A stretch of DNA of 64,000 bases from Desulfomicrobium sp. ZS1 (GTDB lineage Bacteria > Desulfobacterota > Desulfovibrionia > Desulfovibrionales > Desulfomicrobiaceae): assembly GCF_024204645.1 (NCBI RefSeq), contig NZ_CP100351.1:1054001-1118000 (forward strand), written 5' to 3'. This document shows positions 39,885 to 54,761 of this stretch, in pieces. The notes beneath the pieces were generated by a model. The model saw only the letters and a program-made list of their open reading frames with translations. It had not been told where the DNA came from and ran no database searches. The translations under genes and the position numbers were made by a program. Each line of letters starts with the position of its first letter. The first letter of the stretch is position 1.

Positions 39885-40516
39885 GGCTGTTCCTTGGCGT
39901 GGCGAATGATGGTTTTGAGTTCCGCGGCTGCTAGTTGCGGGTCCGGGGCCGAGACGATGGCCGAGACCACAGCCACCCCGTCGCACCCGGCGCGGATGAC
40001 CTCGGCCGCGTTGCCGGGTTTGACGCCGCCGATGCCGACCAGCGGCAGGGACACGGCCGCGCGGATAGCCGCGACGCCGTCAAGGCCCAAGGCCGGGGCC
40101 GTGTCGGTCTTGGTCGGGGTGGAGAACACGGGGCTGATGCCTACATAGTCCGCGCCTTGGGCCTCGGCACGTACGGCGTCTTCCACGCATTCCGCCGAGA
40201 TGCCGATGAGCATGGAGTGTCCGACCACGCGGCGGGCGTCGGCGATGAGCATGTCGGTCTGGCCCAGATGCACGCCGTCTGCACCCACCGCCAGGGCCAC
40301 GTCGATGCGGTCGTTGATGATCAGCGGGATACCGGTCCCGGCCAGCACTTCCCGCACGGCCCGCGCCTCGGTTACGAACTGCCGCGTGGAGCACTCTTTT
40401 TCGCGCAGCTGCACGCAGGTCACGCCTCCGGCCACGGCGGCGCGGACAATGTCCACGGTGGAGCGGCCCAGGGACAGACCCCGGTCCGTGACCAGGTACA
40501 GGGACAGATCAGGCAT
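39881..40516 (-). CDS. thiE: thiamine-phosphate synthase
   Basis: 211 residues from the ATG at 40516. It has the TIM-barrel sequence of ThiE: LYLVTDRGLSLGRSTVDIV, CVQLREKECSTRQF, IINDRIDVALAVGADGVHLGQTDM, YVGISPVFSTPTKTD and VGIGGV. It joins HMP-PP and hydroxyethylthiazole phosphate to thiamine phosphate. It overlaps thiM by 8 bases and thiD by 4. Confidence 0.95.
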   Translation of the reverse strand: MPDLSLYLVTDRGLSLGRSTVDIVRAAVAGGVTCVQLREKECSTRQFVTEARAVREVLAGTGIPLIINDRIDVALAVGADGVHLGQTDMLIADARRVVGHSMLIGISAECVEDAVRAEAQGADYVGISPVFSTPTKTDTAPALGLDGVAAIRAAVSLPLVGIGGVKPGNAAEVIRAGCDGVAVVSAIVSAPDPQLAAAELKTIIRHAKEQP

Positions 40517-41324
40517 GGTGTTCCTCGCGGATGCGGCAGCCTTTGGCCAGATCTTCGGGGGAGAGATTGTAGAGGGCGTCCAAAAGGTGAATCTGGAAGG
40601 TGCCGGGGCCGTCGGCCTTGGTTCCGGCCCGCTCCCCGGCCAGCCCGAAGAAGGCCAGGGCCGTGGCTGCGGCGGAGACGGGATCGGGGTCCACGGCATG
40701 GAAGGCTCCGACCAGGGCCGTGGCCGAGCAGCCCGTGCCCGTAACGTAGGGCATGAGCCTGTGCCCGCCTTCGATGATCAGCGTGCGCCGTCCGTCGGTG
40801 ACCAGATCCGTGGGGCCGGTGATGGCCAGGGTCGTGCCCAGTTCGCGGGCCAGGGCTCCGGCCGTTTTGGCCGCATCCTCGATGGAGTCGGTGGCGTCCA
40901 CGCCTTTGGTCGTGGAGCCCTGGCCGCCCAGAGACAGGATTTCCGAGGCGTTGCCGCGCACCACGCTGACCTTTGTCCAGGCCAGGATGGATTTTGCGGT
41001 TTCGGTGCGAAGCCCGGTCGCCCCGGAACCCACCGGATCAAGGATGATGGGCTTGCCGAGGGCTGTGGCCCTGCGCCCGGCCTTGAGCATGGCTGCGACC
41101 CACACGTCGGTCAGAGTGCCGATGTTGAGCACGAGTGCCCCGGCGTAGGCGACCATTTCTTCGACTTCATTCTCGGCATGGGCCATGACCGGGGACGCGC
41201 CGCAGGCCAGAAGCACATTGGCGGTGTAGTTCATGACCACGAAATTGGTGATGTTGTGGATCAGGGGTTTGGTCTGTCTGAGGGCGCGCAGATTGTCTGC
41301 GGCCTTGCGGGCAAAATCGGGCAC
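40509..41324 (-). CDS. thiM: hydroxyethylthiazole kinase
   Basis: 271 residues from the GTG at 41324 behind GAGG. I rejected the ATG at 41486 because that start would read through the TPP riboswitch. Motifs: PLIHNITNFVVMNYTANVLLACGASPVMAHA, IILDPVGSGAT and VTGTGCSATALVGAF. It phosphorylates the thiazole alcohol for salvage. It is the first gene behind the riboswitch. Confidence 0.95.
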   Translation of the reverse strand: MPDFARKAADNLRALRQTKPLIHNITNFVVMNYTANVLLACGASPVMAHAENEVEEMVAYAGALVLNIGTLTDVWVAAMLKAGRRATALGKPIILDPVGSGATGLRTETAKSILAWTKVSVVRGNASEILSLGGQGSTTKGVDATDSIEDAAKTAGALARELGTTLAITGPTDLVTDGRRTLIIEGGHRLMPYVTGTGCSATALVGAFHAVDPDPVSAAATALAFFGLAGERAGTKADGPGTFQIHLLDALYNLSPEDLAKGCRIREEHHA

Positions 41325-41400
41325 GGTGTACCTCGCACTGCTGTTGGCGTTGGGGCAGCAGGGGCGAGGATTTGGTGGGGCGGCCGCTTCCGGCTTCGTC

Positions 41401-41475
41401 TTGCAATTCCCTTCGCTGGCATGATCCAGATCAGGTTCAACGGGTATCATCTCAGGCTCCTCGCCACCCCTGCAA
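41401..41475 (-). promoter_or_regulatory. TPP riboswitch (THI element)
   Basis: The minus strand reads TTGCAGGGGTGGCGAGGAGC, then CTGAGA (41455-41450), ACCC, GAACCTGATCTGG and GCCAGCGAAGGGA, closing with TGCAA that pairs with the 5' TTGCA (P1). All conserved thi-box positions are present. It lies 77 bases before the thiM GTG and should shut the salvage operon when TPP is high. Confidence 0.96.
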
Positions 41476-41525
41476 AAACTCGTCATTGGCTAGGATAAGC
41501 GGGGGGAGGTGTCAAGGTGGGACCG

Positions 41526-42320
41526 TCACATGCCGATCGAGCAGTTCCGTCCGGCATTTTTGGCCTTGTAGAGAGCTTCGTCGGCGCGCAGCAGGGTCTT
41601 GTCGATGTTTTCTCCGGTGCGGTGTTGCGTATAGCCGATGCTTATCGTCGGCGCGGGGATTTCTTCGCTGATGCGGGGCGCCGCGGCCACGGCGAGGCGC
41701 AGGCGTTCCGCCACGAGCGGAGCGTTCGCGCTTTCGCAGGCCGGGAAAAGGAGCAGGAATTCCTCGCCGCCCCAGCGCGCGCACATGTCGTATTCCCGCA
41801 GCGCGAGTTCCAGCGCGTGGGCCACGGCCTGCAGGACCCTGTCACCGGCGGCATGCCCGAACTTGTCGTTCACGGCCTTGAAGTCATCAACGTCCGCGAT
41901 CATGACCGTGAAACCGGCTTCGGGCTTTCGCGCAGCCTGGGCCGCGGTCTCTTCGAGACGAATGGTCATGTAGCGGCGGTTGGGCAGATTGGTCAGGGAA
42001 TCGTAGTTGGAGGCGTGCTCTAGGCGTTCCTTAAGCTGATGCAGCATGGTCTGGTACTGGTCGCTGATGCGCACGATCTTTTCCAGCTGACGCACCTTTT
42101 TTTCGTAATTGACCAGATAACCTTGGCTGCGTTCGCGTTCGGCGGCCTGGAAGCGGTCCGCGATGTGGGTCAGCCGGTCCAGCAGGCGCTGCTGATCCAT
42201 ATAGCGCTGAAAAAGCTCGCGTAGCGGTTCTTTCCACCCATCCACAGGAGTGTCGGCGGTGAGCAGGGCTTCGATCTGTTCTTCCAGGTTGTCGTTGAGG
42301 TGAAGTGGCGACATGTTCAT
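41526..42320 (-). CDS. siaD: diguanylate cyclase SiaD
   Basis: 264 residues. The N-terminal helical segment (about 1-100) is the SiaC-binding part, ending in a coiled coil before the GGDEF domain. The signature is RWGGEEFLLLF, active, and an inhibitory RxxD site (REYD) lies exactly five residues before it. No membrane segment is seen. In Pseudomonas the SiaD cyclase works only with unphosphorylated SiaC. The start overlaps siaC by 4 bases. Confidence 0.92.
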   Translation of the reverse strand: MNMSPLHLNDNLEEQIEALLTADTPVDGWKEPLRELFQRYMDQQRLLDRLTHIADRFQAAERERSQGYLVNYEKKVRQLEKIVRISDQYQTMLHQLKERLEHASNYDSLTNLPNRRYMTIRLEETAAQAARKPEAGFTVMIADVDDFKAVNDKFGHAAGDRVLQAVAHALELALREYDMCARWGGEEFLLLFPACESANAPLVAERLRLAVAAAPRISEEIPAPTISIGYTQHRTGENIDKTLLRADEALYKAKNAGRNCSIGM

Positions 42321-42694
42321 GACCTCGGGGCGATAGTGAAGGGAAATGTGCAGTCTTCCTTGAACTCCTCGGCCAGTTCTCCGACGCGCTCGTTGTCGGG
42401 GTCGTAGCTCCAGAGCACGTTGACCTGGCGTCCGCTCTGATGGGCTTCCTCCAGCCGGTCGAAGATGTCCATCATGGCCCGGATGCTGCTCGTGTTCAGG
42501 TAGACGAGCTCCAGGTCGAAGGATAGGGGGCGCGAGGTCTCCTTCAGAAAGGTGTCGATCCAGTCGATGATGGGCTGGAAAAACTCGAAGGGATTTTCCG
42601 GGTAGGAGTCTCCGGCCATGAAGACGCGGCCCACTTTATGGTCCATGCGCACTGCGGGGGTGCTGGGTGTTTGCGCGAGTTCAAGATCGTTCAT
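42317..42694 (-). CDS. siaC: SiaC regulatory phosphoprotein (DUF1987)
   Basis: 125 residues with the SiaC fold. The motif FDLELVYLNTSSIRAMMDIFDRLEEA carries the Thr in NTSS that is phosphorylated by SiaB and dephosphorylated by SiaA in Pseudomonas aeruginosa. It activates SiaD by direct binding. It lies 27 bases downstream of siaB. Confidence 0.92.
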   Translation of the reverse strand: MNDLELAQTPSTPAVRMDHKVGRVFMAGDSYPENPFEFFQPIIDWIDTFLKETSRPLSFDLELVYLNTSSIRAMMDIFDRLEEAHQSGRQVNVLWSYDPDNERVGELAEEFKEDCTFPFTIAPRS

Positions 42695-42721
42695 GCTATT
42701 CTCGTTACGTATTTCGAAGAG

Positions 42722-43258
42722 TTAAAGTACGACGCGCAGGCTCAGGAAACTGCGCTGCCCATCCATTTCCCGCACGGTGGCGACAAGAGGGCGGGACGCT
42801 TTGCGGGCCATGTCGATGAGCCCCAGACCGGCGCTACCGTTCAGGATTTCTCGCGGCTGACGCAGTTGGGCCTTGAAGAACGCCTTGAGTTCGTTCCGAT
42901 CCATGGCCGCCAGCTCGTCTACGCGCTTGAGCAGTTCCCGGCCATCGTCCGGGGTCACGACATTGCCCGCGCTGACGACATAGTGTCCGTCTTCGCGGGA
43001 GACGACGATGGCCGCATTGGCCGCGCCTGCGAGCTCCGGATGCTGATCGGCGTAGCGGCGGATGTTCTGGGTCATTTCTATGTACACGGCGAAAATGTCG
43101 GCCACGGCGCTGGGCTGCTCCTGCTGGTGATTGAGATAATCGCGCAGGGCCCGGCCGATCTCCTCGATCAGGGCGGCGTTGATGGGGCCGTTGAAGCAGA
43201 CCATGATCTGTTGCTGGTCGAAGATTTCGCGCAGGTCGAAAAGGTCGGGGGTGGTCAT
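42722..43258 (-). CDS. siaB: SiaB-type protein kinase (DUF6272)
   Basis: 178 residues. The sequence NGPINAALIEEIGRAL, the helix with IEMTQNIRRYA (kinase N box) and GSAGLGLIDMARKA (G-box-like) match the GHKL-type SiaB family that phosphorylates SiaC. It overlaps siaA by 4 bases. Confidence 0.9.
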   Translation of the reverse strand: MTTPDLFDLREIFDQQQIMVCFNGPINAALIEEIGRALRDYLNHQQEQPSAVADIFAVYIEMTQNIRRYADQHPELAGAANAAIVVSREDGHYVVSAGNVVTPDDGRELLKRVDELAAMDRNELKAFFKAQLRQPREILNGSAGLGLIDMARKASRPLVATVREMDGQRSFLSLRVVL

Positions 43259-45348
43259 GTTGCGTTCTCCTCGGTGAGGAAGGGGGATTCAAAACGAAAG
43301 GCCAGCACGGTGATGTCGTCGCGTTGCGGGCGGTCTCCACGATAGCCGGACAGCTCGCGGGTGAGCGATTCCTCCTGAACTTCAAGAGGCAGTCCGGAAT
43401 TTTCTCTGATCCATGTCACGAAGCCGCTCCGCCCGAAAGGCAAGCCCCTGTCTCCGCCGGATTGGTCCAGAATCCCGTCGGTGACAAGATAAAAAACATT
43501 GCCCGGCTCAAGGTCCAGGGTTTGGCAGGTGAAGGGGCGGGGCCTGCGGTCGTTGATTCCGCCCCGGTCGCCCCGGAAGTGCTTGACCTCGGTCTTTCCC
43601 GCCACGAAGAGGTCGATGTGGGCACCCGAAAAATGGACCTGGCGGGTCTTCCACTCGACAAAGCACAATCCGATATCCATAGATGTGGCCAGACGTTCCA
43701 GGCGCTTTGTGTCCGGCATCATGGAGCGCACGGCTTTGTCCGCGCTTTCCAGCAGCGCGGCAGGGTTGTTCCAGGGCTGCTCCAGGGTGGCGCGTTCCAG
43801 GGCCGCATGGGCGATCATGGTCATGAAGGCTCCGGGCACGCCGTGGCCCGCGCAGTCGATGACGCCGAACAGGCAGCCCTCGGCCTGTTCCCGGTACAGG
43901 TAGAAGTCGCCGCCGACCACGTCGCGCGGATGCCAGACCACGAAATACTGCCCGCGCAGGCGCTCGCTGAGCTGGCGGTCCGGGAGGATGACCCGCTGGA
44001 TGAGGCTCGCGTAGCGAATGCTCTCCGTCAGCTGGCGATGGGTGGTGGCCAGCTCGGCATGGGTGCTCTCAAGCTGGGCCGTACGCTCGGCCACGCGCTG
44101 TTCAAGCTCCGCGGTGTGGGCCTGGACCTGGGCGGCCATGGAGTCGAAGGCGCGGGACAGCGCGCCGATTTCATCATTGCGGTTCGATTGCAGCCGTGTT
44201 TCATATCGACCCATGGCCAGTCTGCGCGCCGAGTCGGTCAGGGCCAGCAGGGGGTGCAAGACTAAACGGTCAAAGCCCAAGGTCAGGGTCAGGATGACTA
44301 GAATCAGAATCAGCGCGCCGCCCACCAGGGCCAGGTTGATGATGTCCGAAGACAGGATTCCCTCGGCCGCAGGGTTGACGCTGCTGACCACGGTCCAGCC
44401 AAGTTCCGGAAGGTGCGCCAGCGCCATCATGCGCGTTCCGTGCTGCGTGGCAACCTGCAGCGAACTCACATCCGTCCCTCTGCGCCGTATTTCGGCCAGG
44501 GAGCGGGCGAGAGTCTCGCGGTCGCGGTTTTCGCTCAGTTCAGCGAAAACGGTGCGTGAGGTGTCATGCTTGTCCATGGCCCCGTACTCGATTCTGGCCG
44601 CGTCGGGATGGGCCACGATGCGCCCCTGTGCGTCGACAATAAAGCTCATGGCCCCGGCTGAACGTGCCACGAGCATGGTTTTCAGAAATCTGTCCAATTG
44701 CATGCCGGTGCCAACCAGACCCAGAGGCATGCCCGCCGCGTTGCGGACCTGCACGTTGATCCACAGATTGGTCACTTTGAGCGTGGCGTCGGGGTTGATG
44801 TTGAGCGTGTAGGGAATCGCGTGGTTCATGGTCGAAAAATACCATCCGTCATCGCTTTTGGTCCGATCGAGGGTGTATCGGTACCTGGCGCTGGGGCTTT
44901 TGGGGTCGGCATAATAATAGGCCAGCGTGCGATGATGTATGACAAAATAGGATTGGTCGGCGAAAGCTTGCCGAAACCCTGCGGCTTCGGCTAAAAAACG
45001 GGTCCGGGCCGGAGCTTCCTGCTCTTTCAAAAGCCAGTCCATAAGGGCGCTTAGGCCGGCAAAACGCTGGGCCATGGCCAGTTCCCGGCCAACCAGCGCC
45101 TGGATCTTTTCGCGGGTCAGCTGCGCTTCGGCGACGGCCAGCCTGCGGCTCAGGTCCGTGGTCAGGTCGTGCATAATCCGTTGGCCGATGGTCACGGAGA
45201 GCAGAAGCACCGCAGACGATATGACCAGAAGCAGGAGCCCTATTTTGCGGCGCAGGCCAGTGGCACGATGTCGGAGGGACTGCGGATCTGGGTGGGGACA
45301 AGGGGAATCGGTCATTGTATGTGCTGCGTGCTCCATTGCGTCAGTCAT
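43255..45348 (-). CDS. siaA: SiaA: membrane PP2C/SpoIIE-type phosphatase
   Basis: 697 residues. Membrane segment at about 35-56, periplasmic sensory region (dCache-like, about 57-335), second membrane segment near 337-360, HAMP (about 360-410), coiled coil and a PP2C/SpoIIE domain (about 450-695). Metal sites are VVGGDFYL, GVIDCAGHGVPGAF and RDDITVLAF. It dephosphorylates SiaC in response to an outside signal. The start codon is uncertain: ATG 45348 has no clear ribosome site and 45315 is also possible. It is the first gene of the sia operon. Confidence 0.93.
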   Translation of the reverse strand: MTDAMEHAAHTMTDSPCPHPDPQSLRHRATGLRRKIGLLLLVISSAVLLLSVTIGQRIMHDLTTDLSRRLAVAEAQLTREKIQALVGRELAMAQRFAGLSALMDWLLKEQEAPARTRFLAEAAGFRQAFADQSYFVIHHRTLAYYYADPKSPSARYRYTLDRTKSDDGWYFSTMNHAIPYTLNINPDATLKVTNLWINVQVRNAAGMPLGLVGTGMQLDRFLKTMLVARSAGAMSFIVDAQGRIVAHPDAARIEYGAMDKHDTSRTVFAELSENRDRETLARSLAEIRRRGTDVSSLQVATQHGTRMMALAHLPELGWTVVSSVNPAAEGILSSDIINLALVGGALILILVILTLTLGFDRLVLHPLLALTDSARRLAMGRYETRLQSNRNDEIGALSRAFDSMAAQVQAHTAELEQRVAERTAQLESTHAELATTHRQLTESIRYASLIQRVILPDRQLSERLRGQYFVVWHPRDVVGGDFYLYREQAEGCLFGVIDCAGHGVPGAFMTMIAHAALERATLEQPWNNPAALLESADKAVRSMMPDTKRLERLATSMDIGLCFVEWKTRQVHFSGAHIDLFVAGKTEVKHFRGDRGGINDRRPRPFTCQTLDLEPGNVFYLVTDGILDQSGGDRGLPFGRSGFVTWIRENSGLPLEVQEESLTRELSGYRGDRPQRDDITVLAFRFESPFLTEENAT

Positions 45349-45797
45349 CGAATATTATGTCAAATTTTCAGTAGATTGCAATGCTTGCGGGGTGTTGTCA
45401 ACGACATCTGTCGCCATGCGATGGTTTTATCCATTACGCCATAAGGTATTGTGCTTATGGGTGTTCGTGAAGTATCCAGTGTATGACGACGTGCTGCGAT
45501 ATTGTTTTGTCTGGTGATCTGAAGATCCTGCGCAATGCGGCTCGGGCCATGGCTGAGACCACGCCGTCCATCAAGAACCCGCGTATCGTCTGCGGGCATT
45601 TTGCGTTGGCTAGCCAGGGCGTTGGGCTTTCGGCGTCCTGTTTCGTCATCACGACTCATGGCGACTCATGGCGACATGGATGTGGATTCCGCGCCGGTAA
45701 GGGGCATGTGTGTTCATATCGAATTTCCCTGCAGGCACGCGGGGCGGAAATATTGCCGCGTTCTTAACAGAAATACAGCTAACGCCAGGGTAGAGAT
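45349..45797. other. gap between siaA and the PP-loop gene
   Basis: About 450 bases between divergent genes. It should hold both promoters. Frames on both strands (45360-45659, 45483-45767) show no family features. A short tandem repeat GACTCATGGC occurs twice near 45652-45671. Confidence 0.4.
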
Positions 45798-46460
45798 ATG
45801 ACTTTTTTCGAAAAGATCGCGCTGACCAGATCGCGGATGGTCGAGGTGCTGGAGCGTTTCGGCCCCGGCGCGGCCGTGGGCTGGACCGGGGGCAAGGACT
45901 CCACGGTGGTGTTGGCTCTGTGGCGGGAACTGCTCGCGGCCAAGAGGCCAGGCGCTTCCGTGCGGGCCCTGAATTTGGATACGGGCTGCAAGTTTCCGGA
46001 GGTGCTCGCCTTTCGCGACCGGCTGGCCCGCGAGTGGGATTTGGAACTGCACATTGTCCGGCCCGGTGTCGATCTGTCCCGCTATCCGCTGGCTGTTGAC
46101 CCGGTGGCCTGCTGCGGCGATTTGAAGATCCGTCCTTTGAATGAGGCCGTGCGGGGCTTGTCCATCCCGGCCCTGTTGACCGGGGTGCGCGCCGACGAGA
46201 ATCGGGATCGGGCGAACCGGCCCTGGCTGGAAGATCACGGCGACCACGTCCGGGTTCTGCCCATTCTGGAATGGACGGAACTGGACATCTGGACCTTCAT
46301 GACGCGCGAGTCGATCCCCTGGTGCACGCTTTACGATCAGGGCTACCGCTCGCTTGGCTGCATGCCCTGCACCTCCCGCTCGGGCCATGGCGAGCGTTCG
46401 GGCCGCGACGCGGCCAAGGAAGAGCGCATGGGGCAACTGCGGAGCTTGGGGTATTTTTAG
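45798..46460 (+). CDS. APS/PAPS-reductase-family PP-loop protein without the catalytic cysteine
   Basis: 220 residues. The PP-loop is GWTGGKDST (28-36). Cys105-Cys106 and Cys188-x-x-Cys191 reproduce the CC...CxxC [4Fe-4S] pattern of bacterial APS reductases with the usual spacing of about 80. Those enzymes end with a mobile ECG(L/I)H tail carrying the catalytic Cys. Here the chain ends RSLGYF without any Cys, so it cannot follow the normal reductase mechanism. It may be a thiouridine-type or other sulfur-transfer enzyme, or an APS-binding protein. AGGG precedes the ATG. It stands alone. Confidence 0.85.
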   Translation: MTFFEKIALTRSRMVEVLERFGPGAAVGWTGGKDSTVVLALWRELLAAKRPGASVRALNLDTGCKFPEVLAFRDRLAREWDLELHIVRPGVDLSRYPLAVDPVACCGDLKIRPLNEAVRGLSIPALLTGVRADENRDRANRPWLEDHGDHVRVLPILEWTELDIWTFMTRESIPWCTLYDQGYRSLGCMPCTSRSGHGERSGRDAAKEERMGQLRSLGYF

Positions 46461-46480
46461 GGCGTTTGGGGAAAAGCCGT

Positions 46481-46650
46481 CTCCATGCGGTCGCGTCCCG
46501 GTTCGTCCCGGCCAAGGACCGTCGAAACTCCTTCGCTGGCCTCGTAGAGTCGAACCATTACGTGCGGATTTGACAGGGCGAGGCAGCGCGACCGGCAATG
46601 GTTCGACAAACGATGCCTGGCTCAGTCAGACAGTCGATGGCCTTGACCGG
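46481..46650. repeat. dispersed hairpin repeat, copy upstream of ispG
   Basis: Conserved left flank (GCGTCCCGGTTCG, AAACTCCTTCGCTGGCCTCG), then stem GTCGAACCATT (46549-46559), a 37-base centre, the perfect partner AATGGTTCGAC (46597-46607), and the conserved right flank AAACGATGCCTGGCTCAGTC. The other copy is at 37184-37400. Stem sequences differ completely but pairing is kept. Confidence 0.8.
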
Positions 46651-46803
46651 GACGGACCGAGGCGCTCGGAACGATCGTTGGTGGGGGAAGAATTTCTGTC
46701 TCTTTGTATGTGAGCCAGCTTTCTTTTGTCCGGCAGAGGCGGTTGGAAATTTAGGATTTCCCGTCCTTGGCTTTGAAGACCAAATTCATTACGCTCCCCC
46801 GCC

Positions 46804-47907
46804 ATGACGCAAAACGATCCATCCGTACTTTTTCCTCGCGTAAGGACCCGCTCCCTCTTTGTGGGCGGAGTTGGCATTGGTGGGGACAACCCTGTGCGTG
46901 TGCAGTCCATGACCAACACAGATACCCGTGACGTGGACGCGACCCTGTCCCAGATCAAGGCCCTGGCCGGGGCCGGCTGCGAGATCGTGCGCCTGGCCGT
47001 GCTTGATCTGGAAGCGGCCATGGCCCTCAAAACCATCTGCGCCGCCACGCCCGTACCGCTTATCGCCGATATCCATTTTGATTCCCGTTTGGCCGTGCAG
47101 GCCGTCGAGGCGGGCGTGAAGGGCCTGCGCATCAACCCCGGCAATATCGGCGGCCCGGACAAGGTCGATCGCGTGGTGGACGCGGCCCGCGCGGCGGGAG
47201 TGCCCATCCGCATCGGCGTGAACAGCGGTTCCGTGGACAAGGAACTGCTCAAAAAGCACGGCGGCCCGACCCCTGCGGCCATGGTCGAGAGCGCTTTGGA
47301 ACATGTGCGGTTGCTGGAAGAGCGCAAGTTCGGGGACATCAAGATTTCGCTCAAATCCTCAAGCGTTCTGGGCACTATCGCGGCCTATCGGCTCATGGCG
47401 AAGACCGTGGATTATCCGCTGCACATCGGCGTGACCGAGGCCGGTACGGCCATGCGAGGGGCGGTCAAATCGTCGGTGGGCCTGGGCATCCTGCTGGCCG
47501 AGGGCATCGGCGACACGCTGCGGGTTTCGCTCACCGCCGATCCCGTGGAGGAAATGCTCGTGGCCTGGGAGATCCTGCGCGCTCTGGGACTTCGGTCCAG
47601 AGGACCGGAGATCGTCTCCTGCCCGACCTGCGGCCGCACCGAGATCGGGCTCATCGAACTGGCGAATGCCGTGGAAGACAGGCTGCGCGGGGTGGAGGAC
47701 GTCTTCACCGTGGCGGTCATGGGCTGCGTGGTCAACGGGCCTGGCGAGGCGCGGGAGGCGGACATCGGCGTGGCCGGTGGCCGCGAGTCGGGCCTCATCT
47801 TCCGCAAGGGCGAGGTCGTGCGCAAGGTCAAGGGCCGCTCGGAGCTCTTGCCCGCCTTCATGGAAGAGCTGGAGAAATTTCTGGAGGAGCGGCGGGGTGT
47901 GGCATGA
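46804..47907 (+). CDS. ispG: 4-hydroxy-3-methylbut-2-en-1-yl diphosphate synthase
   Basis: 367 residues of GcpE/IspG. It has VGGVGIGGDNPVRVQSMTNTDTRDV, DIHFD, GLRINPGNIGG and VGVTEAGT-type segments (HIGVTEAGTAMRGAVKSS). The [4Fe-4S] ligands are SCPTCGR (Cys-x-x-Cys) and Cys in GCVVNGPGEA. It makes HMBPP in the MEP isoprenoid path. dxs and ispA lie 9-10 kb downstream on the same strand. Confidence 0.96.
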   Translation: MTQNDPSVLFPRVRTRSLFVGGVGIGGDNPVRVQSMTNTDTRDVDATLSQIKALAGAGCEIVRLAVLDLEAAMALKTICAATPVPLIADIHFDSRLAVQAVEAGVKGLRINPGNIGGPDKVDRVVDAARAAGVPIRIGVNSGSVDKELLKKHGGPTPAAMVESALEHVRLLEERKFGDIKISLKSSSVLGTIAAYRLMAKTVDYPLHIGVTEAGTAMRGAVKSSVGLGILLAEGIGDTLRVSLTADPVEEMLVAWEILRALGLRSRGPEIVSCPTCGRTEIGLIELANAVEDRLRGVEDVFTVAVMGCVVNGPGEAREADIGVAGGRESGLIFRKGEVVRKVKGRSELLPAFMEELEKFLEERRGVA

Positions 47908-47961
47908 AAGCCCGCCAGCTGATTCCGGCTGAGGGAAATGCCTGCCGCACGGGGGTGAGAC

Positions 47962-49050
47962 ATGCCTGGTAAGGATTTTCAGGACCGCGCCGTCGGGGCC
48001 ATCATGGGGGCCTTCATAGGCGACGCCTTGGCTCTGGGACCGCATTGGTACTACAATCTGGACGACCTGCGCCGCGACTACGGCGATTGGATCACCGGCT
48101 ATACCGACCCCAAGCCCGGCCGTTACCATGCAGGCTTGAGGGCCGGACAGCAGTCCCAGGCGGGATTCATCCTTGAACTGACGCTGGCCTCTCTGGTGGA
48201 GCGCGGCGGGTATGATGCCGAGGATTTCTGCCAGCGCATGGACCATGAGCTGTTTCCCCTGCTCGACGGCACGCCCGTGAGCGGACCGGGGAGCTACACC
48301 AGCCAGTCCATTCGCGAGGCCTGGCGGCGGCGCGTCAAACAAAAGCTGCCGTGGGGACAGACCGCGGGACAGGCCGATACCACCGAGGCCATCGAACGCA
48401 CCCTGGCCATCGCGGTGCGCTACGCCCTTGATCCCGCGCAGCTTGCCACGGCCGTGGCCGGTAACGCCGCCCTGACCCAGGCTGACGACCTCGTCCTGTC
48501 CCTGACCGTGGCCTTCGGCGCCGTGCTCGGGCAACTGGTGCAGGGACATCCGCTGGATGCGACGATTTCCGACCGGCTTATGAAGCTGGTCAAGACCGGG
48601 GAGCTGCCGTTTCACGCCGTGACGCGCGAGAACCTGCAGCCGCCACGGCCGGGTGATCCCGATCCGCCGCGCGCCGGGCGTTTCGCGTCTCCGGACGCGC
48701 TCCTGTCCCCGGCGTACATGGCCGCCGCGGCTGCGGACCCAGGCGTGCGCATCGAACCGGCCTGGAAGGTCTCCCTGGTCTATGGCATGCCCTGCGCCAT
48801 CTACCATCAGCTGCCCGCAGCCTACTATCTTGCGGCGCGCTTCCGTGACGACTTTGAATCCGCCGTGCTCCATGCGGTGAACGGCGGCGGACAGAACCAA
48901 GCCCGCGCTATCCTGACCGGCGCCCTGGTCGGAGCTCAGACGGGATTTTCCGGCATCCCCTGGCGCTTCACGGACGGCCTTGTGCGAGGCACCGACCTGC
49001 TGGAGCTTGCGGAGAGGCTGGCGGAGCAGGCGGCGGGGGAGGGCCGTTGA
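47962..49050 (+). CDS. ADP-ribosylglycohydrolase-family protein with altered metal site
   Basis: 362 residues. The N-terminal GAFIGDALALGPHWYYN is the family start. At the C-terminus, where dinuclear-Mg enzymes have GGDTDT, this protein has NGGGQNQARAILTGALVGAQ, so the key Asp residues are Gln/Asn. This form recalls the J1-crystallin branch of the family. The reaction may be lost or changed. GGGGGTG precedes the ATG. The stop overlaps the TTG start of the next gene. Confidence 0.88.
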   Translation: MPGKDFQDRAVGAIMGAFIGDALALGPHWYYNLDDLRRDYGDWITGYTDPKPGRYHAGLRAGQQSQAGFILELTLASLVERGGYDAEDFCQRMDHELFPLLDGTPVSGPGSYTSQSIREAWRRRVKQKLPWGQTAGQADTTEAIERTLAIAVRYALDPAQLATAVAGNAALTQADDLVLSLTVAFGAVLGQLVQGHPLDATISDRLMKLVKTGELPFHAVTRENLQPPRPGDPDPPRAGRFASPDALLSPAYMAAAAADPGVRIEPAWKVSLVYGMPCAIYHQLPAAYYLAARFRDDFESAVLHAVNGGGQNQARAILTGALVGAQTGFSGIPWRFTDGLVRGTDLLELAERLAEQAAGEGR

Positions 49051-50186
49051 GTTCCAAACTTTTTCACTACGGTTCCCTTTTGGGAAAGATCAAGTCTCGT
49101 ATCCGCTCGGCGCAGGCGAAAGCGGCGCTTTCCGCTAACGCGGAGATGATAGCCATGTATTGGGACATCGGGCGGATGATCCATAATCGTCAAGTTGAAG
49201 AGGGGTGGGGGGCGGGCGTCATTCCTCGGCTGGCTGCGGATTTGAAAAATGAACTACCTGAAGTTAAAGGATTTTCTGAACGAAATCTGAAGTACATGAT
49301 TCGTTTTGCTCGAGAATATGGTAAGGATTTGGATGATGGGTTTCTTTCTTCGCGGGCAATTGTGCAGCAGCCTGCTGCACTTTTCGCAGATGGCGATGAT
49401 CGAGGACCAATTGTGCAGCAGGTTGCTGCACAATCGGAAATGCCCCTTGCCGTCATATTGGGGCTGCCGTGGTTTCATCACATAACCCTCTTGGAGAAGG
49501 TCAAGGATCCGTCCGTTCGGGCATGGTATGCGTGGCGGGCACTGGAGCAGGGCTGGAGTCGGGATGCGCTTATGGCCCAGATCAGGGGGCAGGTACACAA
49601 GCGTCAGGGCAGCGCAGTTACAAACTTCATCGCGACCTTGCCGGCCATCCATGCTGATCTGGCGCAGCGACTTCTCAAGGATCCTTACCTCTTTGATTTT
49701 TTGACTATCGAGGAACCGTTTCACGAACGGGAACTGGAAACCAGTCTTGTCCGGCATCTGGAGAAATTTCTTCTTGAACTGGGGGCGGGTTTTGCGTTTG
49801 TCGGACGCCAGTATCACTTGGCGATAAGTGACCGGGATTTTTATCTTGATCTGCTGTTCTACCACTTGAAGCTGCGCTGTTTCATCGTGATTGAACTGAA
49901 GAAGGGCGACTTCAAACCCGAGTACGCCGGGAAAATGAATTTTTATTGTTCCGTGGTCGATGACCAGCTCAGAAACGAAAGCGACAACCTGACCATTGGC
50001 TTGATTCTGTGTCAGACCAAAGACAGGATCCTGGCGGAATACACGTTGCGCGACATGCACAAGCCTATTGGTATTTCCGAATACGAATTGACTCGGTCAT
50101 TGCCGGAGAACTTCAAGTCTGCATTGCCTACCGTGGAAGAGATTGAAGCGGAATTGGACGGGCTTGGCAGTGGGGAACGAATTTGA
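49047..50186 (+). CDS. DUF1016 (YhcG-type) PD-(D/E)XK nuclease-like protein, first copy
   Basis: 379 residues starting with TTG at 49047, which overlaps the preceding TGA. The N-terminal helical DUF1016 domain has YWDIGRMIHNRQVEEGWGAGVI and FSERNLKYMIRFAREY. The C-terminal PD-(D/E)XK nuclease core has FVGRQYHLAISDRDFYLDLLFYHLKLRCFIVIELKKG. Residues 103-127 hold a duplicated IVQQ(P/V)AA motif coded by two palindromic DNA repeats. This family is often found near restriction or mobile genes; its task is not established. A second copy lies at 52338-53378. Confidence 0.9.
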   Translation: MSSKLFHYGSLLGKIKSRIRSAQAKAALSANAEMIAMYWDIGRMIHNRQVEEGWGAGVIPRLAADLKNELPEVKGFSERNLKYMIRFAREYGKDLDDGFLSSRAIVQQPAALFADGDDRGPIVQQVAAQSEMPLAVILGLPWFHHITLLEKVKDPSVRAWYAWRALEQGWSRDALMAQIRGQVHKRQGSAVTNFIATLPAIHADLAQRLLKDPYLFDFLTIEEPFHERELETSLVRHLEKFLLELGAGFAFVGRQYHLAISDRDFYLDLLFYHLKLRCFIVIELKKGDFKPEYAGKMNFYCSVVDDQLRNESDNLTIGLILCQTKDRILAEYTLRDMHKPIGISEYELTRSLPENFKSALPTVEEIEAELDGLGSGERI

Positions 50187-50252
50187 GCCGTAACAGACCA
50201 TGTTCTATTCAGTAACTCATTAATTTATCTATATTCCTCGAGGAGACATTTC

Positions 50253-51995
50253 ATGCTGTTCAGCAAATTCTACGTGCCCACCCTGAAGGAAACCCCGGCC
50301 GAGGCCGAGGTGATCAGCCACAAGCTTCTGCTGCGCGCGGGCATGATCCGCAAGCTGACCAGCGGCATCTACACCTACATGCCGCTTGGCCTTCGCGCCA
50401 TCAACAAGGTCGCCAGCATCGTGCGCGAGGAGATGAACCGGGCCGGGGCCCAGGAAATTTCCATGCCCATGGTGCAGCCGGCCGATCTGTGGCAGGAGAG
50501 CGGGCGCTGGGATTTCTACGGCAAGGAGCTCCTGCGCCTCAAAGACCGCAACGGCCGCGACTACTGCCTCGGACCCACGCACGAGGAGGTCATCACCGAT
50601 CTTGTACGTGGCGAGGTCCGCTCCTACCGTCAGCTGCCCATCAACCTGTACCAGATCCAGACCAAGTTCCGGGACGAGATCCGGCCCCGCTTCGGCCTCA
50701 TGCGCGGCCGTGAGTTCATCATGAAGGACGCCTATTCCTTCGACAAGGACGATGAGGGCGTGAACGCCAGCTACCAGGCCATGTACGACGCCTACACCCG
50801 CGTCTTCACTCGTTTGGGCCTGGAATTTCGGGCCGTTAGCGCAGACTCCGGCGCCATCGGCGGCAGTTTTTCCCATGAGTTTATGGTGCTGGCCGACACC
50901 GGCGAGGACACCCTGGCTGTGTGCACGTCCTGCTCCTACGCCGCCAACCTGGAGAAGGCCGAAACAAAGTCCCAGCCCATGTGCACGACTACCTGCGCCG
51001 CGTTCGAGCAGGTGGCTACTCCGGGTAAGCACACGGTGGAAGACGTGGCCGGATTTTTGGCCGTGGCTACGACCCAGGTCATGAAGACCCTGCTCTTCGA
51101 CGTGGACGGCAAATCCGTGGCCGTGCTGCTGCGCGGTGACCGCGAAGTCAATGACGTGAAGTTGAAAAACCTTCTCGGTGCGACCAGCGTCGAGCTGGCC
51201 ACCCCGGAACAGGTCGTGGCCTGGACCGGCGCGCCCGTGGGCTTTGCCGGACCGGTGGGCCTCAAGGTCGACGCCATCTACGCAGACCATGAAATCGCGG
51301 CAGGCACGGACTTTGTCTGCGGAGCCAACGCCGCTGACACGCACCTCCTCCACGTCGACCCGCGCCGCGACATCATCTTGTCCACGGACGCCGCCCCCAC
51401 GGGCTACGCGGACCTGCGCTCCATCACCCTGGACGACCCCTGCCCGGCCTGTGGCGGCTCCCTGACCATGCCCAAGGGCATCGAGGTCGGCCACGTCTTC
51501 AAGCTCGGCACCAAGTATTCCAAATCCATGAACGCGACCTTCCTGGACGAGAACGGTAAGGAACAGCTCCTTATAATGGGCTGCTACGGCATCGGCGTCA
51601 GCCGCGTGGTCGCGGCCTGCATCGAGCAGAACAATGACGCGAACGGCATGATCTTCCCGCCGTCCATCGCGCCCTTTGAAATCACCATCCTGGCCATGTC
51701 CACCAAGGACGAAAAGGTCATGGCCAAAGGCCGTGAAATCCACGACTGGCTCGAATCCCAAGGCATCGACACCCTCTTCGACGACCGCGACGAGCGCCCC
51801 GGCGTAAAGTTCAACGAAGCGGACCTGCTCGGTTCCCCCATGCAGATCGTCATCGGTGGCAAGGGGCTGGAAAAGGGCGTGCTGGAGGTGAAGAACCGCA
51901 AGACGGGCGAGAAGAGGGAGCTGCCCGTGGCGGAGTGGCAGAATGCGGTTCTGGAATGGAGGAAGGAAGTGATGAAGGAGTGGGGGCTGGCGTAG
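50253..51995 (+). CDS. proS: prolyl-tRNA synthetase
   Basis: 580 residues, bacterial type with the YbaK-like editing domain inserted (about 230-390). Class II motifs: motif 1 [31 protein letters not shown], motif 2 region [27 protein letters not shown], and motif 3 [23 protein letters not shown] precedes the ATG. Confidence 0.97.
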
Positions 51996-52069
51996 CCTGC
52001 TAATTTTGAAAACGAGGCCGGGACGTTGCGGCGAACCGCAATGCCCCGGCCGTTGACCCTCTGGAACCT

Positions 52070-52321
52070 ATGTACATATTTTCCGTCCGAACCCTGACCC
52101 AAGCCATCAAGGATGTCCTCGAAGGCGAATTCCCGTTTGTCTGGGTCCGGGGGCAGGTTTCCAACCTCTCTCGCCCTCCGTCCGGGCCTGTGTATTTTTC
52201 CCTCAAGGACGATGCCGCCACTTTGAGCGAGGTCTGGTTCAAGGGGATCAACCTAAAGTCGGGGATGGCGAACGGGGTTAATCCGGTGCCGGCGAGCCCT
52301 TCCAACTGCGCAGTAAGCTGA
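52070..52321 (+). pseudogene. xseA': truncated 5' duplicate of xseA
   Basis: The first 59 codons match the intact xseA at 53391: about 163 of 177 bases are identical by my eye count, most differences at third positions. Similarity weakens after FKG but GTTAATCC...GCCGGCGAG is still recognisable, then the frame ends at 52321. Only the start of the OB-fold remains, so it is not functional as a nuclease subunit. It lies 16 bases before the second DUF1016 gene and may serve as its translated leader. Confidence 0.92.
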
Positions 52322-52337
52322 GAGCAGGGAGCGAAGC

Positions 52338-53378
52338 ATGAAACAGCTTGTTAAGCCGGAGATGGCTGATTCAACCATCCTTGTGAATACACTCCGGGAC
52401 TTGATCCGTCAGGCGCGGCAGCAGGTGCTGCGCAGCGTCGATACCATACAGGTGCAGACGTATTGGCAGATCGGCAGGCATATCGTTGAGTTCGAACAGG
52501 GCGGGCAGGCTCGGGCCGATTATGGAAAGCGGCTGTTGTCCAATTTGGCTGATGCGCTCACCCAGGAATTCGGCAAGGGATTTGATGAGCGTAACTTGCG
52601 GAATATGCGGGCTTTTTTTCAGTGCTTTCCGAATTGGAACGCGGTGCGTTCCGAATTGAGTTGGACGCATTACCGCCTGCTGCTACGGGTGGATTCACCT
52701 GAGGCGCGCAACTGGTACATGGACGAAACGGCAGGGCAAAATTGGAGCACGCGGGTTCTTGAGCGACAGATAGGCACCCTGTTTTATGAACGTTTGTTGT
52801 CCAGCAAGGATAAGCAGAGGTTGCTCGAAGATTCGCGAGAGCAGGTGCGGTCGGAGATCGGTTCACCACGCGATTTCGTGCGTGATCCGGTTATGCTGGA
52901 ATTTCTGGGTGTTCGTGATTTGGCTGGATTGCTGGAGTCTGATTTGGAGCAGGCGCTCATGAATAAGCTGCAGCAGTTTCTGCTGGAACTTGGCAAGGGC
53001 TTCGCTTTTGTCGCACGTCAGCAGCGCGTAAGCACAGAAACGCAGGATTTTTATATTGACCTCGTGTTCTATAACTATGTGCTCAAGTGTTTTGTGCTGA
53101 TCGATCTGAAGACAGGTCATCTTTCGCATCAGGATATCGGTCAGATGGACATGTATGTGCGTCTGTATGACGATTTGCGCCGTGGGGAAGGCGACAACCC
53201 GACAGTTGGAATATTGCTTTGTGGCAGCAAGGATCATTCGGTTGCCAGGTATTCCGTATTGCACGAAAGTCAGCAGTTATTTGCAAGCAAATACAGGTTG
53301 GTGCTGCCCAGCGAAGAGGAACTTCGCCGGGAACTGGACCGTGAAACCCAGGCTGCGCGGTCGTGGCTTAGCGATTAA
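52338..53378 (+). CDS. DUF1016 (YhcG-type) PD-(D/E)XK nuclease-like protein, second copy, inserted at xseA
   Basis: 346 residues, GGGAG before the ATG. DUF1016 N-terminal domain (VQTYWQIGRHIVEFEQGGQARADYG; FDERNLRNMRAFFQCFP) and nuclease core (FVARQQRVSTETQDFYIDLVFYNYVLKCFVLIDLKTG). It lies exactly between a truncated xseA start and the intact xseA, with only 12-16 bases on each side, so its arrival and the xseA duplication are probably one event. It is a diverged paralogue of the gene at 49047. Confidence 0.9.
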   Translation: MKQLVKPEMADSTILVNTLRDLIRQARQQVLRSVDTIQVQTYWQIGRHIVEFEQGGQARADYGKRLLSNLADALTQEFGKGFDERNLRNMRAFFQCFPNWNAVRSELSWTHYRLLLRVDSPEARNWYMDETAGQNWSTRVLERQIGTLFYERLLSSKDKQRLLEDSREQVRSEIGSPRDFVRDPVMLEFLGVRDLAGLLESDLEQALMNKLQQFLLELGKGFAFVARQQRVSTETQDFYIDLVFYNYVLKCFVLIDLKTGHLSHQDIGQMDMYVRLYDDLRRGEGDNPTVGILLCGSKDHSVARYSVLHESQQLFASKYRLVLPSEEELRRELDRETQAARSWLSD

Positions 53379-53390
53379 GAGAAGCCGCCC

Positions 53391-54761
53391 ATGCACATAT
53401 TCTCCGTCTGCACCCTCACTCAAGCCATCAAGGACGTCCTCGAGGGCGAATTCCCGTTCGTCTGGGTCCGGGGGCAGGTTTCCAACCTCTCTCGCCCGCC
53501 GTCCGGGCATGTGTATTTTTCCCTCAAGGACGATGACGCCACCTTGAGCGTGGTCTGGTTCAAGGGGGCTCAGCCCAAGGGTTCCAAGGAAGGAGACGAG
53601 CGGGTCAATCCTGTTACCGGCGAGGTGGAGAGCGGGGAGCCTTTTGAGCTTTGCGATGGGCAGGAAGTGCTCGTGGCCGGGCGCATGAATGTCTATCCGC
53701 CGCGCGGGGCCTATCAGCTGGTGGCGGAGTTGGTGCAGGGGCAGGGTTTGGGCGAGTTGGCCGTGGCCTTTGAGGCCATGAAGGCCAAACTTGCCGCCAA
53801 AGGGTATTTCGATCCGGACCGCAAGATGGTCCTGCCGCGCAATCCGCGTCGGGTGGCCGTGGTCACGGCTCCCCAAGGCGCGGCCTTGCAGGATTTTCTG
53901 CGCATCGCGGGCGACCGGGGCTATGGTGCCACCATTCGGGTCTATCCGAGCCTGGTGCAGGGCGAGAGCGCTCCGGCCCAGATCGCCGCCGCCCTGGACC
54001 GCGCCGACCGGGACGGATGGGCCGATGTCATCGCGCTCATTCGCGGCGGCGGGTCTCTCGAAGACCTGTGGGCCTTCAACACCGAGCCCGTGGCCGAGGC
54101 CGTGTTCCGGGCGCGGCTGCCGGTCGTGTGTGGGGTGGGGCATGAGGTGGATACGAGCATAGCCGATCTGGTGGCGGACCAGCGCGCGGCCACGCCGTCC
54201 CACGCGGCGCAGATTTTGTGGACCGAACGCGGCGTGCTGCGTCAGCAGACCGACGAAACTTTCCTGGCCCTGACGCGCGGCATGGATCGCTTGCTGGACC
54301 TGCGCGAGCGGGATCTGCAGCGCCATGCGCAGGGACTTGCCTGGCATTCCCCGGCCCGTCGCATCGAGCGCGGCGGCTTTGAACTGGAGCGCTTGGCAGG
54401 CCGTCTGCAGCAGGCCATTGGCACGCAGGTGGAAAGCCGCGCCATGACTCTGGCGCGTCTGCAGGATCGGATGTATCGATCCTTTGGCCCGGCCGCGATG
54501 CTGGCGCTGCGTTCGGAGCTGGACAGGGCGGAAGGGGCCCTGGAGCAGGCCGGAAGCCGTTTCGTGCGCGTGCGTCTGGAAAGTCTGCGTGGAATCGAAG
54601 GCCGTCTGGCCGCCCTGGACCCTGCGGCCCCGCTGGCGCGTGGGTACGCGCTGGTCAGGGGTTCAGCCGGTTTTGTTCGTTCGCGGGAAGATGTGCAGGC
54701 GGGGGATGAAATCCGGGTACAGGTCGCGGACGGGGAATTTTCAGCGGAGGTGTTGCCATGA
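53391..54761 (+). CDS. xseA: exodeoxyribonuclease VII large subunit
   Basis: 456 residues. N-terminal OB-fold (FSVCTLTQAIKDVLEGEFPFVWVRGQVSNL), catalytic region with RVAVVTAPQGAALQDFL, IRGGGSLEDLWAFN and GVGHEVDTSIADLVADQRAATPSHAA, then a coiled coil and C-terminal GYALVRG. It cuts single-stranded DNA with XseB. The ribosome site is weak (GAGAAG). It starts 12 bases after the DUF1016 gene, which now lies in its former upstream region. It overlaps the M23 gene by 4 bases. Confidence 0.96.
   Translation: MHIFSVCTLTQAIKDVLEGEFPFVWVRGQVSNLSRPPSGHVYFSLKDDDATLSVVWFKGAQPKGSKEGDERVNPVTGEVESGEPFELCDGQEVLVAGRMNVYPPRGAYQLVAELVQGQGLGELAVAFEAMKAKLAAKGYFDPDRKMVLPRNPRRVAVVTAPQGAALQDFLRIAGDRGYGATIRVYPSLVQGESAPAQIAAALDRADRDGWADVIALIRGGGSLEDLWAFNTEPVAEAVFRARLPVVCGVGHEVDTSIADLVADQRAATPSHAAQILWTERGVLRQQTDETFLALTRGMDRLLDLRERDLQRHAQGLAWHSPARRIERGGFELERLAGRLQQAIGTQVESRAMTLARLQDRMYRSFGPAAMLALRSELDRAEGALEQAGSRFVRVRLESLRGIEGRLAALDPAAPLARGYALVRGSAGFVRSREDVQAGDEIRVQVADGEFSAEVLP

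Follow-up and report, generated by a model that had tools for sequence, protein, structure and literature searches.

The present comparisons show that a small stand-alone protein of Desulfomicrobium sp. ZS1, encoded in the 64,000-nucleotide stretch of DNA analysed here (the window), does not belong to the APS/PAPS reductases that work through a tail cysteine, and it can be proposed with moderate confidence that its family comprises CysN-free, CysD-like, single-domain APS-handling enzymes, most likely of the adenylyltransferase type. This model proposes that the GGKDS PP-loop and the RxDE motif would bind ATP, or APS plus pyrophosphate, that the sulfate end would be held by K110, R131, R138, R200 and R203, that a flexible CysD-type tail would close over the active site, and that an APR-type [4Fe-4S] cluster would lie beside the sulfate. 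What the analysis shows directly is the motifs, the type of the tail, the conservation of both, the lack of a clear CysN and the presence of the family in genomes that have the enzymes of sulfate reduction; that it binds nucleotides and has a cluster, which substrate it takes, in which direction it would react and what it does in the cell are inferred.

Table 1. Positions of the gene, of the motifs in its product and of other features of the window.
Feature	Position	Strand	Basis or remark
Stand-alone PF01507 protein, 220 aa	45798..46460 (stop included)	+	CysD-like, with APR-type iron-sulfur cysteines
PP-loop TGGKDST, residues 30-36, ATP type	45885..45905	+	67-row alignment
Cys105-Cys106, first half of the putative [4Fe-4S] ligands	46110..46115	+	translation and alignments
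R131-x-D133-E134, CysD-type motif	46188..46199	+	67-row alignment
Cys176, invariant as a fifth cysteine; putative thiol within the site	46323..46325	+	
Cys188-x-x-Cys191, second half of the putative cluster ligands	46359..46370	+	translation and alignments
CysD-type tail E199-R-S-G-R ... R-S-L-G-Y-F220	46392..46457	+	L217 aligned with the catalytic Cys of APR ECG(L/I)H
ispG (GcpE), downstream neighbour	46804..47907	+	recurs in several other Desulfovibrionales loci
DUF1016/YhcG PDDEXK-nuclease gene	52338-53378		between two copies of the xseA 5' end
Second DUF1016/YhcG nuclease gene	49047-50186		DNA comparison with the 52338-53378 gene
TPP riboswitch	41391-41481	minus	Rfam, 55.8 bits (cut-off 54.3); 4 kb from the gene under study

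Translation of the gene gives 220 residues, with cysteines at 64, 105, 106, 176, 188 and 191 and a C-terminal RSLGYF, and the open reading frame, the two cysteine pairs and the intact PP-loop are as described earlier from the letters of the window (the sequence-only reading). PF01507 (PAPS_reduct) is the only Pfam family matched (E 5e-38, 131.2 bits, over the gathering cut-off of 22.5), and the gene is the sole match over this cut-off in the 3.87-Mb genome, one more lying below it at 21.8 bits. Among NCBIfam models cysH scores best (NF002537, 111.3 bits) under a cut-off of 154, and the other reductase models (TIGR00434, 86.3 bits for a cut-off of 165.1; TIGR02055, 86 for 235.3) and the CysD models (NF003587, 101.7 for 195; TIGR02039, 78.9 for 396.6) likewise fall under theirs; the DndC model TIGR03183, at 17.9 bits for a cut-off of 290.4, does not include the protein. 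The closest matches with a genus name are from Desulfomicrobium, at 80 and 76% identity. An Rfam scan of 40000-52000 returned no family in the gene or immediately before it, the TPP riboswitch 4 kb away being the one match, and a promoter search found one promoter-like site by it, on the other strand and with a score near chance level.

At the position of the ECG(L/I)H motif, found in 10/10 APR/CysH rows of a 67-row alignment, the family has xLGYF, and LGYF closes the protein in all of 42 Desulfovibrionales loci (some of which are the same genome twice) bar one fragment at a contig end. Across 46381-46900 none of the forward frames, all three of which were read, contains ECG(L/I)H, and with the LGYF ends of the orthologues this rules out a truncation or frameshift of the gene; the sequencing error that might have hidden a normal ECGLH tail, raised in the sequence-only reading, is thereby excluded. 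When the final 24 residues were compared against shuffled sequences as a control, and scored as mean z by group, the tail resembles those of iron-sulfur CysDs most closely (mean z 6.5, n=13, 4.8 to 8.1), followed by canonical CysDs (3.8, n=8, -1.4 to 6.0, one of the eight, L205b, being incomplete) and APR/CysH proteins (0.5, n=10, 0.0 to 1.3). The tail cysteine of assimilatory reductases is indeed missing from the protein and from the orthologues examined, as had been noted, but the accompanying description of a plain loss, 'no catalytic tail', is not supported, since a complete and conserved tail of another type, that of CysD, is present, with iron-sulfur CysD as its best match. The sequence-only reading had set the protein against reductases only, and the CysD character of the tail was overlooked.

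The core motifs of the protein point in the same direction. The 67-row alignment comprised 18 Desulfovibrionales orthologues, eight orthologues from outside the order, three divergent members, seven clusterless homologues, 13 iron-sulfur CysDs, eight CysDs and ten APR/CysH proteins. K33, D34 and S35 of the PP-loop are each present in 57/57 rows outside APR/CysH and in 3/10 APR/CysH rows, and D133 and E134 likewise in 57/57 rows on the side of the family and CysD, as against 3/10 (D) and 5/10 (E) among APR/CysH. The GGKDS PP-loop and RxDE of the protein thus side with CysD rather than with most reductases, although GKDS is found as well in three archaeal CysH rows whose tail is ECGIH, so that the PP-loop alone is not decisive. 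K110, R131, R138, R200 and R203, which we take from APR structures to contact the phosphosulfate in relatives, are each kept in at least 66 of the 67 rows.

The likeness to CysD (E. coli b2752; P. syringae 1zun_A) extends over the GKDS PP-loop, RxDE, ERxGR, the GYF/GYM-type end and the fold, whereas CysD is longer before ERxGR by an insert that the 220-residue protein is without, has CysN as a partner, and in 7/8 rows has no full set of cluster cysteines, all four of which are present here. The iron-sulfur CysDs beside CysN (L045, L046, L048, L143-L150) and two proteins like them (L156, L175) share with it CC (13/13 rows), CxxC (12/13), K65 of DTxxK and a tail of the form ER(A/S)GRAQDxE...MQKLRxxGYM; they differ in the CysD-type insert, their length being 266-267 aa in eight examples from the phylum Desulfobacterota, and a CysN-like open reading frame was labelled in 9/11 of the loci examined. 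With assimilatory APS reductase/CysH (2goy, 7lhs) the protein shares the four cluster cysteines, the compact region from CxxC to ERxGR, the phosphosulfate-side residues and the fold, and differs in the tail motif and in GKDS, which is lost in seven of the ten APR/CysH rows. A clusterless sister clade, comprising seven proteins and the Desulfolutivibrio plasmid genes L151 and L152, has the same tail type, RxDE and Cys176, and is set apart by an extra insert before K110 and by the loss or breakage of CC and CxxC in all seven.

In a tree without outgroup, APR/CysH (100/99) and CysD together with iron-sulfur CysD (100/100) form separate clades with the family between them. In the full-length tree, which includes five outgroup rows and was drawn with a midpoint root falling between these and the rest, the family lies outside the CysD clade and on the CysD side against APR, the group of the family and CysD having support of 98/94 and APR/CysH of 97/95. 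When the tail is removed (three outgroup rows), the best fit is that with the family grouped with CysD, 0.58 log units ahead of the free tree; a grouping with APR is not significantly worse (p-AU 0.30), and the test neither establishes nor rejects that all groups of the family are monophyletic (p-AU 0.50). The placement on the CysD side thus owes much to the tail. CysD, APS reductase and the family form three lineages, of which the tail-less tree leaves the nearest pair undecided. The predicted fold does not separate kinship with CysD from kinship with APR: for the AlphaFold model (pLDDT 83 on average, below 50 at residues 195-203 and 210-220), VIA-align gave Z scores of 20.7 with the PAPS domain of FAD synthase, 19.6 with CysD and 18 to 19.6 with APS/PAPS reductases, and Foldseek ranked CysH/APR first. 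The fold class is also that of LarE, TtuA, NcsA and TilS, and it is conceivable, if rather unlikely, that the protein adenylates or thiolates some other substrate (a tRNA, a cofactor, a sugar or another oxyanion), as other clustered PP-loop enzymes do; orthologue loci outside the order, which hold polysaccharide-type and sulfatase/phosphodiesterase-superfamily genes, would be in keeping with this. However, these PP-loop thiolases score Z of about 14 to 15, below the 18 to 21 of CysD, APR and FAD synthase, all five residues presumed to face the phosphosulfate are kept, and the carrier genomes are mostly sulfate reducers by AprA and Sat.

The spacing of the cluster cysteines is CC-x81-CxxC, and C105, C106, C188 and C191 correspond to the APR-type cluster motif (the CC-x80-CxxC class). 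The sequence-only reading had listed these four and missed Cys176, which is kept in 21/21 aligned orthologues and, in the 67-row set, in 18/18 orthologues from the order and 8/8 from outside it. Cys176 is retained in the clusterless clade, where CC is gone in 7/7 proteins and CxxC broken in 7/7; one of these (L172) keeps the first Cys of CxxC, and in another (L177) Cys176 is the only cysteine. Cys176 occurs in 0/10 rows with a tail cysteine, where Asn (seven) or His (three) takes its place, and in 39/57 rows without one. Such a distribution, in which the two cysteines never occur together and Cys176 outlasts the cluster, is what could be expected of an APS reductase that uses the core Cys176 in place of the tail cysteine, taking the sulfo group and releasing sulfite to a thiol partner, and the description of small 4Fe-4S relatives in M. 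jannaschii as APS reductase (in the accessible part of PMC6286981) is consistent with it. We regard this as a real but clearly less probable alternative. The complementarity rests essentially on one clade, APR, and may reflect one event; Cys176 is not tied to reduction, being absent from two divergent members (L153, L154) that have all four cluster cysteines and present in 4/13 iron-sulfur CysDs and in 1/8 CysDs (L096); plain APS reduction does not account for the ATP-type PP-loop and RxDE; and AprA is already in 27/28 genomes. Cys176 may be ancestral, as 3/5 phage outgroup proteins have a Cys at the same place in the motif. The phage PAPS-reductase-like proteins L206, L207 and L210 match the family in all five cysteines, having CC, CxxC and one Cys within the LY motif.

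A combination of both activities can also be imagined, in which one small enzyme would activate sulfate with ATP and, without a change of site, reduce the APS it has bound to sulfite, with Cys176 as the thiol and the [4Fe-4S] cluster optional; this we consider improbable. It is equally speculative that such a protein would stand between CysD and APS reductase as a self-contained sulfate-to-sulfite enzyme, and there is similarly little likelihood that the catalytic cysteine arose first in the core and moved to the tail later, in APS reductase.

The genome context bears on the adenylyltransferase reading through CysN, with which CysD works as the catalytic subunit (PMC6286981, accessible part). 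Among 31 genomes (23 with the family, three with divergent members and five whose only homologue is clusterless), not one reaches the cut-off of the CysN model, 336.1 bits, although a divergent CysN could score lower; scores were at most 119.4 bits in 30/31, in a range where GTPases of the translation type match as well, and 109.5 bits in the genome of the protein itself, the remaining genome (G217) reaching 266.6. The adenylyltransferase reading is supported by the CysD-type tail, the PP-loop with RxDE, the five conserved residues on the phosphosulfate side, the full-length tree and the absence of a clear CysN. However, the tail-less tree, cysH as the best NCBIfam model, the Foldseek ranking, the level VIA-align scores, the description of CysD as working with CysN and the CysN-like match of G217 count against it. 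In addition, Sat is over cut-off in 27/28 genomes (20 with the family, three divergent, five clusterless only) and sat has been named as essential in D. vulgaris Hildenborough (PMC10102598, accessible part), so that another ATP sulfurylase would either duplicate Sat or be too weak. AprA is over cut-off in 27/28 of the same genomes, the exception both times being a MAG (G300), which bears out the earlier remark that a sulfate reducer already has a dissimilatory APS reductase. A role other than ordinary APS reduction, as the sequence-only reading had proposed, is thus likely, because the tail cysteine is absent, the PP-loop intact and AprA present; Cys176 nonetheless leaves room for reduction through an internal cysteine.

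The profile used for distribution was an alignment of 21 orthologues, applied to 297 genomes of the order and 297 of the phylum. In Desulfovibrionales, 196/297 genomes have a match at E <= 1e-3; among the matches listed, 151 genomes reach E <= 1e-60 by hand count, three of these being divergent (G230, G234, G244), and genus g12 has nothing better than 1.7e-20. In the phylum sample, E <= 1e-60 is reached in 11/297 genomes, of which nine belong to other orders, and a further 15 fall in a band of 1e-45 to 1e-36, of which the eight examined encode the iron-sulfur CysD of 266-267 aa. AprA (E <= 1e-150) is present in 119/297 genomes of this sample, in 10/11 with the family and in 0/15 of the second band, an association in which related genomes are counted as they come and not as independent events. 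One gene copy (L164), in a genome given as 43% complete, is broken by frame changes.

No constant operon partner was seen in the Desulfovibrionales loci examined, where ispG, PNPOx-like and other neighbours vary by genus (in one listing the gene was located in all but 4/20 loci), and no functional link between ispG and the gene was shown in these loci; the survey of homologues proposed earlier thus confirmed the missing tail cysteine without yielding a constant neighbour in this order. Some genera have neighbours that we take, from sequence, to be Ech-hydrogenase-like and ferritin-like. The variable surroundings, together with the 101/297 genomes of the order that have no match at E <= 1e-3, might suggest a sensor of APS/ATP that is not an enzyme, or a weakly selected relic, which is highly improbable given that catalytic-type residues are invariant across families and that synonymous codon changes outnumber nonsynonymous ones in comparisons of the gene with L004 (32 to 10), L028 (73 to 35) and L025 (71 to 57), L024 as a fourth locus yielding no comparison; the gene is under selection.

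Outside the order, orthologue loci hold polysaccharide-type genes, and among neighbours searched against family libraries, sulfatase/phosphodiesterase-superfamily genes lie near five orthologues and one divergent member (L190). Pfam Phosphodiest genes adjoin three of these orthologues. Two iron-sulfur CysD-CysN pairs adjoin what is presumably a phosphodiesterase-superfamily-like gene, followed in one of them (L145) by presumed ABC-transporter-like genes. UDP-sulfoquinovose synthases belong to a family that uses sulfite, and a gene resembling UDP-sulfoquinovose synthase (440 bits, cut-off 575) adjoins the orthologue in three genomes, all of one genus, which would suit the reduction of APS through Cys176; however, such a gene is found in only 7/32 genomes (28 with the family or relatives, four without), in none over the cut-off, and was not found in the genome of the window, so that sulfite supply for UDP-sulfoquinovose is unsupported as a general role. 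In one genome (G050) a single small gene separates the clusterless homologue from an ATP-sulfurylase/APS-kinase fusion. APS kinase matches are common with and without the protein (54/61 genomes overall) and absent from four genomes that have it (G020, G121, G403, G369), and PAPS as a needed substrate is therefore unsupported.

Elsewhere in the window, two copies of 180 nt from the xseA 5' end, 91.7% identical, lie within 52067-53567 on either side of a nuclease gene, as if its insertion had duplicated the target; between this gene and the second nuclease gene no significant DNA similarity was detected. The genes behind the TPP riboswitch are, as we read them from sequence, a thiM, thiE, thiD run.

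No paper on the function of the family was found among the open-access papers searched, and terms for it gave no match in the text of PMC4215793 or, among the terms tried, in the accessible part of PMC10102598. In the available portions of two genome papers, dde_1789 of O. alaskensis G20 is given as CysH, PAPS reductase, and as 'shell', with 39 genomes lacking it (PMC10133479), and cysH is reported in Pseudodesulfovibrio genomes (PMC11505543); we infer that both are members of the family. The PAPS reductase of PMC10322725, as far as its accessible part goes, is of the AprAB type and of no help here. The protein common in Desulfovibrionales is thus probably what genome papers on sulfate reducers call cysH or PAPS reductase, and judged by its sequence this label is probably a misannotation, one that attributes to these organisms an assimilatory step from sulfate to sulfite for which the sequence gives no support. 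With its forms that have a cluster, lack one or lack Cys176, the family is also natural material for testing how ATP-dependent activation of sulfate and reduction of APS with a cluster diverged within one fold.
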